64,000 bases of DNA, taken from positions 372,001 to 436,000 of the forward strand of contig NZ_QYAC01000002.1 of assembly GCF_016758195.1 (NCBI RefSeq), in the 5' to 3' direction. Source of the stretch: Leucobacter chromiireducens subsp. solipictus (lineage in GTDB: Bacteria > Actinomycetota > Actinomycetes > Actinomycetales > Microbacteriaceae). Shown here one piece after another: positions 5,170 through 52,984 of this stretch. The notes beneath the pieces were generated by a model. That model did not search any database. It saw nothing but the letters and a program-made list of their open reading frames with translations, and had not been told where the DNA came from. Numbering within the stretch: the first letter of the stretch is position 1; each line of letters opens with the position of its first letter. The position numbers and the translations under genes are program-made.

Positions 5170-6165
5170 ATGAAAATCGAGCTGGTAACGCTACGACAGA
5201 TCGAACGTGAGAAAGAGATTCCGTTCGACGAACTGGTCGAGATTATTGAGCAGGCCATCCAGACCGCGTACCTGCGTCACGCGGAAAACCAGAATCTCCC
5301 GGTGCCCCGCGAATCCGATGTGCGGGTGACGCTGGACCGCAAGACCGGCGAGATTTCCGTGCTCGTGCCCGAACTCGACGACGACGGTCAGGTGATCGGC
5401 GAGGCCTACGTCACCACCGACGAGTTTGGACGCGTCGCGTCGAGCGCCGCGAAGCAGGTCATCAACCAGCGGCTGCGCGACCTGAGCGATGACGCCGTCC
5501 TCGGCACCTTCAAGGATCGCGAGGGTCAGATCGTCTCGGGCGTCGTGCAGCAGGGCCCGAACCCGCGGATGGTGCACATCGACCTGGGCGAGCTTGAGGC
5601 GATCCTCCCTCCCGAGGAGCAGATCGCCGGCGAGAAGTACCCGCACGGCATGCGCATCCGCGTCTACGTGACCAGCGTCTCCAAGGGCACGAAGGGCCCG
5701 CAGGTTGTCGTCTCCCGCACGCACCCGGGCCTCGTGCGCAAGCTCTTCGAACGGGAGGTTCCGGAGCTTGCCGAGGGGCTCGTCGAAATCGTGTCGCTCG
5801 CCCGTGAGGCGGGGCACCGCTCGAAGGTGGCGGTGCGCGCGAAGCAGGCTGGCATCAACGCGAAGGGCACCTGCATCGGCGAGATGGGGAGCCGTGTGCG
5901 CGCCGTCATGGCTGAGCTCGGTGAAGAGAAGATCGACATCGTGGATTACTCGCCGGAACTGCCGAAGTTCGTCGCGAACGCCCTGTCGCCCGCGAAGGTG
6001 ACCGACGTCTTCATGCTGAACGAGTCGCTGAAGCAGGTGCGCGCACTCGTCCCCGACTTCCAGCTCTCGCTGGCTATCGGCAAGGAGGGCCAGAACGCCC
6101 GCCTCGCCGCGAAGCTGACGGGCGCGAAGATCGACATCCAGCCCGACTCGATCATGAACGACTAA
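5170..6165 (+). CDS. nusA: Transcription termination/antitermination factor NusA
   Basis: The 331-residue length is typical of actinobacterial NusA, which lacks the C-terminal acidic repeats of E. coli. The order is the N-terminal RNA polymerase-binding domain (1-~125), an S1 RNA-binding domain (~130-200, with GQIVSGVVQQGPNPRMVHID), then two KH domains (~225-331, with GTCIGEMGSRVRAV and IGKEGQNARLAA). It acts in pausing, termination and rRNA antitermination. In most actinobacteria rimP lies just upstream; here the neighbours are proS and yiaA and no rimP is seen. The last ~45 bases are copied, once inverted and once directly, in the spacer downstream. Confidence 0.97.
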   Translation: MKIELVTLRQIEREKEIPFDELVEIIEQAIQTAYLRHAENQNLPVPRESDVRVTLDRKTGEISVLVPELDDDGQVIGEAYVTTDEFGRVASSAAKQVINQRLRDLSDDAVLGTFKDREGQIVSGVVQQGPNPRMVHIDLGELEAILPPEEQIAGEKYPHGMRIRVYVTSVSKGTKGPQVVVSRTHPGLVRKLFEREVPELAEGLVEIVSLAREAGHRSKVAVRAKQAGINAKGTCIGEMGSRVRAVMAELGEEKIDIVDYSPELPKFVANALSPAKVTDVFMLNESLKQVRALVPDFQLSLAIGKEGQNARLAAKLTGAKIDIQPDSIMND

Positions 6166-6191
6166 CGCTCTCTGGATGTCGATCTTCGCGC
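6122..6191. repeat. 19-bp perfect inverted repeat across the nusA stop codon
   Basis: Bases 6122-6140, inside the nusA coding end, are the exact reverse complement of 6173-6191 in the spacer, with 32 nt between them. The transcript could form a long hairpin enclosing the stop codon. There is no T-tract. This looks like an inverted partial copy of the gene end rather than a normal terminator. Confidence 0.85.
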
Positions 6192-6235
6192 GTTTCACGG
6201 AAGGGCGGAGCCCTGACGTGGAACGTCCGTATTGC

Positions 6236-6335
6236 CGACATCCAGCCCGCGCGGATTCCTAGGGCGAGAACGCGTCAGCGTTCTCGCGGGATCCGCGGTG
6301 ACGCTTCTGCGTCACATCATGAACGACTAACGCTC
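6236..6335 (+). repeat. Direct copy of the nusA 3' end split by a 66-nt palindromic insertion
   Basis: Bases 6236-6249 equal 6132-6145 of nusA, and 6316-6335 equal 6151-6170, including the stop codon. In nusA these blocks are 5 nt apart; here they flank 66 nt (6250-6315). The inserted part contains two hairpins: GCGAGAACGC-GTCA-GCGTTCTCGC (6264-6287), enclosed by imperfect CGCGGAT/ATCCGCG arms, and GTGACGC-TTCT-GCGTCAC (6297-6314). See findings. Confidence 0.85.
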
Positions 6336-6343
6336 CGCCCGAA

Positions 6344-6411
6344 CCCGACCGAGACACCAATTTCGCACCTTCTTCACACGAGAACGGTGCGAGATTGGTG
6401 TCTCGGTCGGG
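6344..6411. repeat. Long hairpin, 26-bp stem, upstream of ylxR
   Basis: Left arm 6344-6369 and right arm 6386-6411 pair at 25 of 26 positions, and the remaining pair is a G-U wobble in RNA. The loop is 16 nt. No T-tract follows, so this is not a classical terminator. It could be an RNA-processing or transcript-stability structure, or another mobile palindrome. Confidence 0.8.
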
Positions 6412-6541
6412 AGCGTGCGGGAGGTGGCGCACCGCGGCGGAGCGCGACACGCGTGCAGAGCGCCCGCGACACGCGGTGACTTGCTGAGCGTTGTACGCGC
6501 GCTGAGCGAACGGCGCAATGAAGAAGTGGGAAGCTGGTAAG

Positions 6542-33544: not shown

Positions 33545-33570
33545 TGGGGCGGCCGCATGCGGCCGCCCCA
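33545..33570. terminator. Perfect 26-nt palindrome downstream of the dsbA-like gene
   Basis: TGGGGCGGCCGCA followed at once by its reverse complement. There is no loop and no T-tract. It sits 9 nt after the stop codon and just 5' of tRNA-Thr; terminator or processing site. Confidence 0.5.
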
Positions 33571-33574
33571 CAGT

Positions 33575-33650
33575 GCCGCCTTAGCTCATCTGGTAGAGCA
33601 GCGCCCTTGTAAAGCGCAGGTGATCGGTTCGAGTCCGATAGGCGGCTCCA
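33575..33650 (+). tRNA. tRNA-Thr (anticodon TGT)
   Basis: A 76-nt cloverleaf with encoded CCA. Acceptor GCCGCCT pairs with AGGCGGC, D stem GCTC/GAGC, anticodon loop CTTGTAA, T loop TTCGAGT. The anticodon TGT reads ACA and, by wobble, other ACN codons. The 31-39 pair at the base of the anticodon loop is a C-A mismatch, the only weak pair. The 3' half of this tRNA is copied, inverted and direct, in the 150 bases downstream. Confidence 0.95.
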
Positions 33651-33654
33651 CGCT

Positions 33655-33677
33655 GGCCCCGCTTCGCGGGGCCTTTT
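33655..33677 (+). terminator. Intrinsic terminator of tRNA-Thr
   Basis: GGCCCCGC-TTC-GCGGGGCC followed by TTTT, 4 nt after the CCA end. Confidence 0.85.
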
Positions 33678-33684
33678 GCGTGTC

Positions 33685-33710
33685 GCCGCCTATCGGACTC
33701 TGAACCGATC
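33685..33710 (-). repeat. Inverted copy of the tRNA-Thr 3' half
   Basis: Reverse complement of tRNA bases 33622-33646 (T arm and 3' acceptor strand) with one extra base. It is not a second tRNA, because the 5' half is missing. Two small perfect hairpins follow directly: CCGGCGAAGC-AC-GCTTCGCCGG (33711-33732) and GCAACGC-TTC-GCGTTGC (33743-33759). Confidence 0.85.
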
Positions 33711-33776
33711 CCGGCGAAGCACGCTTCGCCGGCTTGCCGCGCGCAACGCTTCGCGTTGCCCTGAGCGCGTCAAGCA

Positions 33777-33795
33777 AGTCCGATAGGCGGCTCCA
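33777..33795 (+). repeat. Direct 19-nt copy of the tRNA-Thr 3' end
   Basis: Identical to 33632-33650, the last 19 bases of the tRNA including CCA. It resembles an att-site duplication, but only 126 bp separate the two copies and no integrase is present. Confidence 0.85.
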
Positions 33796-33969
33796 GTAAG
33801 AAAACGCGAAGCGTTTTCGACCGGAGTCGGTGCCGCCACTGCGGCACTTGCAGATGGACACTGTCGCGGAGCGTCCGGTTTCCAGTAAGAAAACGCGAAG
33901 CGTTTTCGACCGGAGTCGGTGCCGCCACTGCGGCACGTGCAGATGAGCACTGTCGCGGAGCGTCCGGCT
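33792..33969 (+). repeat. 89-bp tandem duplication with a perfect hairpin
   Basis: Two copies (33792-33880 and 33881-33969) differ at about four positions. Each begins TCCAGTAAG, so the first overlaps the CCA of the tRNA copy. Each carries GAAAACGC-GAA-GCGTTTTC (33800-33818 and 33889-33907). The spacer 33678-34196 holds no gene that I can support. Confidence 0.88.
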
Positions 33970-34196
33970 CCACTCGCTGTGCTCGGTGCGCCGCACCCAG
34001 CCGAGATGGCAATGGTGCGCGTTATTGCCGCGCGAATGGTGCGCAATTGCGTTGTCGGGCGGGAAGACGCGCGTATTCTCAGCGGCGCGGGTGCTCTATT
34101 GCGTTCTCGGCGCAGCCGCCTGAGGGGTGGGGGAGGGCACTCGTCCGGTTGGGCGTCGATGGCCGGCCCGGGTGCCTGCGGATTGCCGGAGGCGAG

Positions 34197-46627: not shown

Positions 46628-47755
46628 ATGCACACGTTCCGCGGTCGGCGCACGCGTCGCGCTCTCGCACTCGCCACCGTCGCGTTGCTGGGGCTGGGGT
46701 TGACGGCGTGCCAGAGCGTTGGTGCCCCGGGTGGCCTGGAGTCCGCCGAGACGGTGGAGCTGCCCCCGATTTCGGACCTCACCCCCGCGCCGGATCCGAG
46801 CAACATTCAAGGCCCCACGACCGCGCTGATCGGGGGCCCCTCGATCGCGCCCGTCGCCGAGGCACCCACGCCGGAGCTGCCCGCAACGGTGACCTCGCAC
46901 GACCGATCCGGCGACACCGAGGTGACGGTGACCGACACCTCCCGCGTGCTCGCGCTGTCCCTGAGCGGTTCGCTCGGCGAGCTTGTGCACGCCTACGGCC
47001 TCTCGGATCAGCTGGTGGGTCGCGACATCTCGACCAACTTCCCCGGTTCGGAGGATCTGCCGATCGTCACCCGTGACGGGCACTCGATTGATGCCGAGAG
47101 CGTGTTGGGGCTGAGCCCGACGGTGATCCTCACGGACGGGTCGATCGGCCCGACGGACGTGGTGCTGCAAATGCGTGACGCCGGGATCCCCGTGATCACC
47201 GTGGATCGCGCGGTCGACGCGGAGAGCACCTTCGTGACGGCGCAGCAGGTCGCTGACGCGCTGGGGGTGCCCGATTCGGCACCGCCGCTGATCGATACGC
47301 TGCAGGCGGCGATCGCAGCCAAGGAGGCGGAGGTCGCGACGCTCCTTCCCGAGGACCCGGAGAAGCTCCCACGCGTGGCATTCCTCTACGTTCGTGGCAC
47401 CTCGGGGATCTACTACCTGTTTGGTGAGGGCAGCGGCGTGGATAGCCTGATCCGGTCGATCGGCGCCGTTGACGTCGCCGCGGAGATCGGGTGGAAGGGC
47501 GAAAAGCCGATGACGGACGAGGCGCTCATCGCGATCGATCCCGATGTCATTCTCGTCATGACCAAGGGCCTGGAGAGCGCCGGCGGGGTAGACGGCCTGC
47601 TGGAGGCGCAGCCCAGTATCGCGCTGACGACGGCCGGCAAGAATCGCCGAATCATCGACGTGGACGACACCCTGCTGTTCGCCGGCGGCACGCGGATCCC
47701 GGACGTGATCGACGGCCTCGCCCGCGCGGTGTATGCACCGGATTCGCTGGGGTAA
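46628..47755 (+). CDS. hmuT: Haem-binding lipoprotein HmuT
   Basis: A protein of about 375 residues from ATG 46628 (MHTFRGRRTRRALALATVAL). The lipobox is GLTAC, so it is lipid-anchored outside the membrane. The class III periplasmic-binding fold has two lobes joined by a helix: VLALSLSGSLGELVHAYGLSDQLVGRD, then SPTVILTD, VAFLYVRGTSGIYYL and the C-terminal lobe ending FAGGTRIPDVIDGLARAVYA. It receives haem from HtaA proteins and hands it to HmuUV. It is divergent from hmuUV. Confidence 0.92.
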   Translation: MHTFRGRRTRRALALATVALLGLGLTACQSVGAPGGLESAETVELPPISDLTPAPDPSNIQGPTTALIGGPSIAPVAEAPTPELPATVTSHDRSGDTEVTVTDTSRVLALSLSGSLGELVHAYGLSDQLVGRDISTNFPGSEDLPIVTRDGHSIDAESVLGLSPTVILTDGSIGPTDVVLQMRDAGIPVITVDRAVDAESTFVTAQQVADALGVPDSAPPLIDTLQAAIAAKEAEVATLLPEDPEKLPRVAFLYVRGTSGIYYLFGEGSGVDSLIRSIGAVDVAAEIGWKGEKPMTDEALIAIDPDVILVMTKGLESAGGVDGLLEAQPSIALTTAGKNRRIIDVDDTLLFAGGTRIPDVIDGLARAVYAPDSLG

Positions 47756-47775
47756 CGTGCGCGTCCCGCTCACAT

Positions 47776-47795
47776 GAAAACGCGTGAGCGTTTTC
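47776..47795. repeat. Perfect hairpin GAAAACGC-GTGA-GCGTTTTC
   Basis: Same arms as the two hairpins beside tRNA-Thr, 21 nt after the hmuT stop. Imperfect outer pairing (CGCGTCCCGC with GCGGGTCGCG) lengthens it. Confidence 0.8.
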
Positions 47796-47967
47796 GTGCG
47801 GGTCGCGCCGGGGCTCCTGTCACGGTATGCGATCCGGTGCTGGGTGCGCGTGCGCGCCCAGCCGACGGGCGTAGCCCGGGGGATGATTCGCTGACGGAGT
47901 ACCTGAGCGCCTGAGCGCCTCGCTCGACCGACCGCGCGTGAGCGCGTTTGTGCGTGACGCGCCAGGG
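47781..47967 (+). repeat. Diverged direct repeat in the hmuT to LytR_C spacer
   Basis: A ~34-nt block starting CGCGTGAGCG recurs at 47935-47967 with about 75% identity by eye. The 363-bp spacer 47756-48118 contains these repeats and a possible TACTCT -10 (48053-48058), but no gene that I can support. Confidence 0.55.
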
Positions 47968-52106: not shown

Positions 52107-52185
52107 AGGAGATCCTTCGGCGAGGGGAAGTTTGCCTCTGAAAATCTCCTGCGGAATCGTGAATCTCCGTGATTTTGGTGAGCCA
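52107..52185 (-). repeat. 79-bp dispersed element copy, array position 1
   Basis: AGGAGATCC to AGCCA, 79 nt. It is the most diverged of the five array copies. Same family as 19962, 50960 and 59899, read inverted. Confidence 0.85.
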
Positions 52186-52327
52186 GTGCAGGAGGCCCGA
52201 GCCCGGGAGACCCGAACACACGGGTGCCTGAGCACACGAGCACCTGAGCACACGAGCACCTGAGCGCACGGGCGTGCCGGGGTGCCCACTTGCCCCGGTG
52301 CGGTGCGTCGTGCGGTGACAGGTTCCT

Positions 52328-52406
52328 AGGAGATCCATCGGCGAGGGGGCATTTGCCCCAGAAAAACTCCTGCGGACTCGTGAATCTCCGTGGTTTTGGT
52401 GAGCCA
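52328..52406 (-). repeat. 79-bp dispersed element copy, array position 2
   Basis: Exactly 79 nt. The preceding ~26 nt (GCGGTGCGTCGTGCGGTGAC and following) also precede position 5. Confidence 0.88.
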
Positions 52407-52448
52407 GGGCCACGGCGCATGAGACTTCGAGTGCGGTGACAGGTCACT

Positions 52449-52527
52449 AGGAGATCCTTCGGCGAGGGGGCATTTGCCCCAGAAAAACTCCTGCGGACTC
52501 GTGAATCTCCGTGGTTTTGGTGAGCCA
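52449..52527 (-). repeat. 79-bp dispersed element copy, array position 3
   Basis: 121 bp after position 2. Element and 42-bp linker are repeated together in positions 2-4. Confidence 0.9.
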
Positions 52528-52569
52528 GGGCCACGGCGCATGAGACTTCGAGTGCGGTGACAGGTCACT

Positions 52570-52648
52570 AGGAGATCCTTCGGCGAGGGGGCATTTGCCC
52601 CAGAAAAACTCCTGCGGACTCGTGAATCTCCGTGGTTTTGGTGAGCCA
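52570..52648 (-). repeat. 79-bp dispersed element copy, array position 4
   Basis: 121 bp after position 3 and identical to it over the element as far as I can read. Confidence 0.9.
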
Positions 52649-52778
52649 GGGCCACGGTGCCCGAGGCTTCGGGCTCGCTGGTGCGCAAACACGCGGGCAC
52701 CCGGGGCACCCGGGACCCCGGGGTGCCCCGGGTGCCCGTCAGCCCACGGCGCGGTGCGTCGTGCGGTGACAGGTCCCT

Positions 52779-52857
52779 AGGAGATCCATCGGCCAGGGGA
52801 CGTTTGCCCTTGGAGATCTCCTGCGGACTCGTGAATCTCCGTGGTTTTGGTGAGCCA
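52779..52857 (-). repeat. 79-bp dispersed element copy, array position 5
   Basis: 79 nt. It differs in the middle (TTGCCCTTGGAGATCTCC), which strengthens an internal palindrome. The whole 52014-52984 interval has no supportable gene; the open frames across it are made by the repeat. Confidence 0.85.
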
Positions 52858-52984
52858 AAGCCACGGTGTATGAGACTCGGGCGCGGGAGGACCGGGGTTC
52901 CCCGCTCGACTGAAGCGCGGGCCCGAGGCCCAGGCCTAGGCCTAGGCTCGGGTCCAACCCCAGGCCCGACCCCAGACCTCGCAG

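Follow-up and report, generated by a model that had tools for sequence, protein, structure and literature searches.

Integrative elements directed at tRNA genes and icd, which are classical targets of integrases, use the 3' end of a conserved gene, which is restored while the old end is displaced. Integron cassettes form arrays sharing one junction sequence, with folded attC arms, extrahelical bases near the junction and R''/R' boxes of consensus RYYYAAC/GTTRRRY. Among smaller elements, the CGTC-tagged REPs are short palindromic repeats found mostly downstream of genes and lacking a dedicated transposase, some of which are inserted inside larger palindromes (Di Nocera et al. 2013, PMC3733652), while Rickettsia palindromic elements and bacterial MITEs add codons inside open reading frames (Delihas 2007, PMC2229807). 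Here we describe a structured repeat family, element E, to which copies at gene ends belong in a 64,000 nt stretch of Leucobacter chromiireducens subsp. solipictus (GCF_016758195.1, NZ_QYAC01000002.1; genome G000), hereafter the window, and in other members of the genus.

Element E is about 65 nt long and comprises an outer stem, a bulge on the 5' side (mostly 4–6 nt), an inner AACGC/GCGTT hairpin and a second hairpin whose loop is often CACT. It resembles integrative elements of tRNA genes and icd in its 3'-end target, restored end and displaced old end, but has no genes, is accompanied by an inverted copy and shows one structured core at many targets. As in integron cassettes, units sharing a junction form an array with folded arms and, in some copies, unpaired bases near the junction; however the units measure 57–145 bp and contain no gene, host gene ends take the place of R/L boxes as arms, and instead of attC boxes there is, by reading, the conserved AACGC/GCGTT stem with variable neighbours. 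Like CGTC REPs as described in PMC3733652, whose main text does not contain the word 'actinobacteria', E lies mostly 3' of genes, combines a stem with an unpaired motif and has no known transposase as far as the Y1, RVT_1 and IntI families go, and some intergenic copies are nested in CGTCATCCTGCG..CGCAGGAT palindromes whose tag and stem match the CGTC design. It differs from them, as described there, in its two-hairpin unit, its 5'-side bulge within the stem, its few copies in most genomes and its outer arms, which copy the last codons of the host gene and covary with them. By reading, E itself is without the CGTC tag, the 8–9-bp stem starting AT and the CCA-like tail. GTAG REPs and REPINs are, as described in the same paper, likewise non-autonomous hairpins, which often come in pairs and have an unpaired tetranucleotide next to the stem (PMC3733652), but E differs from these (RAYT, IS200/IS605-like Y1) in its locus-specific arms and in a genus that yielded no Y1 match (see below), and its bulge motifs (by reading TAGG, CTAG, ATAG, TTGG, TGAG, TCAGA, TCGGG and others) do not present the GTAG tag at a hairpin end. 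Since E lacks the tags of both REP superfamilies we do not file it as a member of either; by analogy, it would work like a REP or MITE. Rickettsia palindromic elements and MITEs, as far as PMC2229807 describes them, are also small mobile palindromes near or inside genes, but E sits at the gene end and reproduces existing last codons. As far as the literature covered goes, the new part is that the arms of E reproduce the host gene end; nothing on gene-end-copying repeats in Leucobacter was found in the open-access literature, which is no proof of absence in print.

Structure of element E and its copies in the window

A covariance model (R1) built from 16 copies of E, those of the window among them, places five copies in the window, of which one follows nusA, three follow tRNA-Thr and one follows a periplasmic-binding-protein gene (Table 1). 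Of the 19 pairs of the fold, 17 are changed on both sides among 41 distinct copies in the alignment fitted to the model, with 197 doubly changed cells compared to 53 in shuffles; the unfitted alignment gives 13 of 19 pairs and 55 cells compared to 17. Often the outer stem is made up of the final codons of the host gene and changes in step with it. A pattern for the inner hairpin alone has 31 matches in 13 of 54 Leucobacter genomes, some of them inside coding sequence, compared to two for a reversed control.

Table 1. Features of the window at the three loci with element E (R1, covariance model score)
Positions	Strand	Feature	Remarks
33575..33650	+	tRNA-Thr(TGT), host gene of element E	
33655..33677	+	GC hairpin then T-run (terminator-like), 3' of tRNA-Thr	tip of the tRNA-end/inverted-copy hairpin
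33685..33710	-	inverted copy of tRNA-Thr bases 33622-33646	one additional base at TTC^GAGTCC; CTCTGAACC form also in L013, L020
33712..33776	-	element E copy 1	R1 56.7 bits; bulge TCAGG, inner hairpin CAACGC/GCGTTG, second hairpin CCGGCGAAGC..
33777..33795	+	direct copy of tRNA-Thr 3' end (33632-33650)	exact, 19 bases
33788..33846	+	element E copy 2	R1 44.3 bits; outer 5' arm overlaps direct copy of tRNA-Thr end
33872..33935	+	element E copy 3	R1 39.5 bits; tandem with copy 2 (89-bp period, 33792-33967)
5170..6165	+	nusA, second host gene	NusA_N and NusA-like KH domains
6172..6191	-	inverted copy of nusA 6122-6141	perfect, 20 nt; immediately 3' of stop codon
6192..6224	+	hairpin GTTTCACG..CGTGGAAC	several other Leucobacter have similar hairpins 3' of nusA
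6236..6335	+	displaced direct copy of nusA end	split by E (6236-6249 and 6316-6335)
6250..6314	+	element E copy 4, within displaced nusA-end copy	R1 70.5 bits
47735..47747	+	last codons of periplasmic-binding-protein gene (Peripla_BP_2)	stop 47753-47755; inverted copy ~47830-47841
47760..47824	+	element E copy 5, between periplasmic-binding-protein gene end and its inverted copy	R1 45.7 bits

The first-pass annotation had described an inverted and a direct copy of the tRNA-Thr end, three hairpins and a tandem duplication, in a layout like that of nusA. Both copies are there, the inverted one with an inserted base (read back it is GGTTCAGAGTCC, the tRNA itself having GGTTCGAGTCC), as are the palindromes at 33711-33732, 33743-33759 and 33800-33818 and the duplication (97% over 87 aligned bases), and the nusA end reads in the same way. 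Taken as single-stranded DNA, 33622-33975 folds with z = -12.6, and the nusA region 6115-6425 gives z = -12.3, none of 100 shuffles being as stable in either case. The tRNA is the only match within the window to Rfam at gathering thresholds. A perfect 26-base palindrome (13-bp arms, no loop) lies at 33545-33570, between the DsbA-like gene and tRNA-Thr, and GC hairpins 3' of the DsbA-like gene are also seen by eye in relatives.

A segment followed within 350 bp by an inverted and a later direct copy (12-mers) was sought over 854,000 bases of the same genome (41 stretches, some overlapping, window included), giving 13 clusters on both strands compared to two in one single-strand Markov shuffle. 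The nusA and tRNA-Thr ends account for three of these clusters. Four further clusters were read, these being a GTGAATCTCCGTG repeat (L058, with which L069 and L071 share 12-mers), a match within an open reading frame (L067), a duplicated tRNA (L080, by reading) and L094. Plain tRNA duplication suits L080, but not the tRNA-Thr locus. Elsewhere in the genome at least three tRNA genes are duplicated as a tandem set (G000:C6:155102-156113, tRNA matches at 713-base spacing). The window also carries, at 52107-52860, a 121-bp tandem repeat of three copies with CTCGTGAATCTCCGTGG, a motif that recurs in L058, L069 and L071 and is distinct from E.

Distribution of element E and its host genes

With 98 first-look candidates scored per genome, R1 finds E in 42 of 54 Leucobacter genomes (E-value <= 0.01), in up to 37 copies per genome; four of the 42 rest on a single match with an E-value of 0.0016–0.0031. 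The window's genome contains at least 10 copies at five loci, namely nusA, tRNA-Thr, the Peripla_BP_2 gene, icd and a DUF4193 gene, all at or just past gene 3' ends, and weak copies may be missed in this count because 150 of 6,835 candidates were scored. In a sample of the family (150 genomes, 85 genera; 35 candidates scored per genome under stricter filters than in the genus scan), E was found in two genomes at an E-value <= 0.001, that of the window and one of another genus. In the latter it follows an HD-domain (dgt-like) gene just upstream of dnaG, and several Leucobacter carry E at that gene too. Carriage by phages was considered and, as far as a strict pattern of E goes, rejected, its one match in viral_contigs being read as a chance match within coding sequence. 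A lack of other examples genome-wide, which would have spoken against the first-pass annotation, is contradicted by the five loci in this genome and by E in 42 of 54 genomes. The same architecture is seen at the nusA, icd, DUF4193, HD-hydrolase (dgt-like) and tRNA ends of other Leucobacter.

The tRNA-Thr(TGT) gene lies directly downstream of the DsbA-like protein locus in all 19 relative records examined. R1 matches adjoin it at 7 of 20 loci including the window, which are the window, L003, L009, L013, L015 and L020 (best E-value <= 0.0007) and L017 (0.012); L012 gives a weak match (0.11) and the other loci none there. An inverted copy, hairpins and a direct copy follow the gene in L003, L013, L015 and L020, and in degenerate form in L007 (by eye). 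The direct copy in L013 has its own tRNA's GACAGGCGGC and that of the window has GATAGGCGGC, but one of the two direct copies in L020 is unlike its own tRNA-Thr.

A nusA match was present in 53 of 54 genomes of the genus, and of the 51 ends that could be placed 50 were scored, one contig ending too early. An inverted copy of host nusA bases lies no more than 75 nt past the stop in 17 of the 50 (edit distance 1–4, in each case under that of all 100 base shuffles of the stretch), and L108 and L205 are apparently weaker cases by eye. Set against every distinct sequence of the other genomes, the inverted copy matches the gene of its own host strictly better in 11 of the 17 and is best or tied in 13, the remainder being L111, L113, L115 and L122. 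In G028 (L200) and G040 (L202), the codons preceding the conserved QPDSIMND end of nusA are swapped for other sequence, altering the NusA C-terminus in frame; the new sequence in G028 resembles the right end of the element, as if fused by an imprecise deletion. The gap between nusA and ylxR is approximately 7 kb in two genomes (L126/L127; G020, G021) and less than 650 bases in the other 28 loci measured. A large element was considered there and rejected; the 16 ORFs Pfam-scanned in the two insertions include no integrase and are two-component and ABC-transporter genes, two G020 ORFs without a Pfam match overlapping those genes on the other strand.

For icd, matched in 43 of 54 genomes, 43 ends were read (L173 and L225 are one genome) and E was recognised 3' of the gene in 12 of the 43 by reading, in degenerate form in L217. 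In G033 (L173/L225) the left half of E stands alone (stop plus GCAAAACGCG), perhaps as a deletion scar. The last codons of icd and the inverted arm covary (CGCTTGGC/GCCAAGCG, CGCCTGGC/GCCAGGCG, CGTTTGGC/GCCAAACG); in G050 (L211) the arm, by reading, suits a different version than the present gene. One genome (G004) has E with LQQRLA-TAG, and the five other members of its clade end in LQARLA or LQARLG with TAA. On a quick 39-genome tree built from the coding sequences of icd and nusA, in which 10 of 36 inner branches are weak, the presence of E requires at least eight state changes at nusA and at least nine at icd (10 icd carriers in the tree); states were assigned by reading, remnants were excluded and the counts come without a shuffled-label control. 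At icd, the window's genome and G044, its sister in that tree, share the second hairpin while their last codons, inner hairpin and arm differ, a pattern like that of concerted change in an array. An array at the dgt-like gene has three units in G010 and two in G009 (94% identical there), and the inner loop is changed alike in every unit.

Stop codons, displaced ends and palindromes

Position was assessed at 49 loci, each array being represented by a single E; L275, L284 and L285 were removed because they repeat loci already counted, and the loci of the window are excluded. A long open reading frame on the strand of E stops at +8 to +18 of the element in 14 of these, no other 11-nt bin holding more than four, a share that is not unbiased because R1 was partly trained on icd and dgt-like copies. 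In the 14 loci, which represent about six genes (icd 5, dgt-like 4, one unnamed gene 2, three others), the stop codon sits in the bulge and the outer arm consists of the last codons.

Displaced nusA ends were compared with the current gene over the last nine codons plus stop, ungapped and with at most 8 of 30 mismatches, a cut that favours well-kept copies. The 14 copies retained, from 12 genomes, show 23 synonymous and six nonsynonymous codon differences, with TAA/TAG/TGA swaps scored as synonymous, compared to a neutral expectation of 20% synonymous. The two tandem copies in L116 and in L098 are identical and so enter the count twice; with the second ones struck out by hand, 18 synonymous and five nonsynonymous differences remain. 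Of the six nonsynonymous differences, four affect the first codon, where the junction lies. The 19 nusA loci with an inverted copy include seven that have no full-length ungapped displaced copy and were left out of the count, and decayed displaced copies with nonsynonymous changes are seen by eye in L101, L106, L108 and the third copy of L122. As the differences are mostly synonymous (23 of 29 codons), the displaced sequences were probably once functional gene ends.

Other copies of E lie, by reading, inside TTGAGCG..GTCGAAA palindromes or tRNA-end copies. The CGTCATCCTGCG..CGCAGGAT palindromes occur in Leucobacter genomes (L147, L148, L222-L224, L268), some of them with E at the centre. Of 13 such palindromes, nine have a middle of 12–32 nt without E and four a middle of 71–72 nt with E. 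A GAATGC-like arm is present in eight of the 49 loci and in one of these it is the DUF4193 gene end itself (G017, GCGGAATGCTCAGGC), which suggests that the intergenic copies with this arm may derive from the end of that gene.

Proposed origin and mobilisation of element E

We favour, with a probability of roughly 0.6, the view that E is a small mobile repeat, non-autonomous and of the REP/MITE kind, which inserts at gene ends and restores them. Its targets would be particular conserved genes and tRNAs, at their 3' ends, as well as other palindromes, which it would enter in the middle. On arrival at a gene, E would carry in final codons and a stop of its own, by which the host gene would be restored, and an inverted copy would pair with the new end while the old end was pushed downstream as a direct copy; repeated insertion and homogenisation of the array could then give rise to tandem units. 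Insertion would be additive rather than an allelic exchange, with a folded single strand as the likely substrate and a putative trans-acting enzyme to mobilise it. The sequences themselves show the fold and its covariation, the fixed stop position at some genes, the matching arms, the mostly synonymous displaced ends, the patchy distribution and changes in copy number, of which the last three bear on mobility indirectly. The junctions, placed by eye, are TTC^GAGTCC in tRNA-Thr and ATC^GACATCC in nusA, and one or two extra bases, mostly T, occur at the junction in a number of inverted copies. Among the loci compared, neither an empty/filled pair with sharp ends at a gene nor a target duplication of constant length was found. 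The suggestion of the first-pass annotation that one mechanism acts on gene 3' ends, common to nusA and tRNA-Thr, is supported at the level of sequence, as R1 matches both loci and the architecture recurs at other Leucobacter gene ends.

It is conceivable, though unlikely, that E is instead a resident functional structure of mRNA and tRNA 3' ends (a terminator, stabiliser or processing site), inherited vertically with its pairing kept by compensatory selection. Such a role would account for its place directly 3' of genes, for the stop fixed in the bulge at several of them and for arms that covary with the gene, but not readily for the same gene without E in close relatives, the many changes needed for 10 icd carriers in the tree, the copies in palindromes away from gene ends, or copy 1 at tRNA-Thr, which is on the strand opposite the gene although copies 2 and 3 are on the gene strand. 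Patchiness could also follow if E were immobile and had spread only as species exchanged the 3' ends of genes by allelic homologous recombination, in which case the arms would travel with the gene end and synonymous differences would arise too. We regard this as quite unlikely, because the old ends are displaced, which implies addition rather than replacement, and because E would have had to move to new sites to reach REP-like palindromes and many different genes.

Two further accounts seem very improbable to us. Replication may have slipped or folded back at a hairpin-rich gene end, copying that end inverted and direct by local template switching with no mobile element involved; hairpins favour such events, tandem units do homogenise, and the gene end and its inverted and direct copies are mostly matched locally. 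However, unrelated genes and another genus have the same inner and second hairpins, the inspected units show no copying of the bulge, and the displaced ends have synonymous and stop-codon differences as if derived from other lineages, which argues for a process that is more than a local copying error. We have similarly little confidence that these loci are internally deleted remnants of integrative elements with a tyrosine integrase and att sites, even though a restored end with a displaced copy resembles attL/attR and tyrosine recombinases are present in all 54 Leucobacter genomes. Here att sites would come without inverted copies, and unrelated integrases would not be expected to share one structured 65-nt core at many different targets. 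The first-pass annotation had held that clear att sites and an integrase would make the tRNA-Thr locus only a decayed element of this type; neither was noticed in the few hundred bases 3' of tRNA-Thr (20 loci) or nusA (51 ends), which speaks against such decay as far as short flanks read by eye and the 16 ORFs of the nusA–ylxR insertions go.

If E is a mobile repeat, it may, more tentatively, represent a new class of insertion element guided by base pairing, in which a folded strand of about 65 nt pairs through its inverted arm (the guide) with the flank just upstream of the junction, inserts and supplies the last codons and stop. We raise this possibility, which we consider doubtful at present, because the part of the inverted copy upstream of the junction pairs with the target flank and its remainder with the gene end that belongs to the element. 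A copy that settles at a new gene might renew its guide, and the intergenic GAATGC-arm copies, which resemble the DUF4193 gene end, may show such an escape.

Three enzyme families (Y1, RVT_1 and IntI) were searched as candidate mobilisers. The Y1 transposase domain (Y1_Tnp, PF01797) had no match in any of the 54 Leucobacter genomes while 5 of 14 control genomes were positive, and mobilisation of E by IS200/IS605 or RAYT was therefore rejected. An integron integrase was rejected with TIGR02249 over cut-off in one of 54 genomes; G047:C5:30965-31681 is the sole such gene above the NCBIfam cut-off. A reverse transcriptase was likewise set aside, RVT_1 being present in eight of 54 genomes (seven with E) compared to 42 with E. 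A tyrosine recombinase is a possible mobiliser.

REPs without a transposase are an open puzzle, and in the sample searched the E family is nearly confined to one genus. Its arms track each host gene's own end and the displaced copies would constitute a coding record of past insertions, so that the order of events may be read and the mobiliser searched for. If the inverted arm does guide targeting, E would be a very small DNA-guided insertion system whose conserved target genes are left unharmed.
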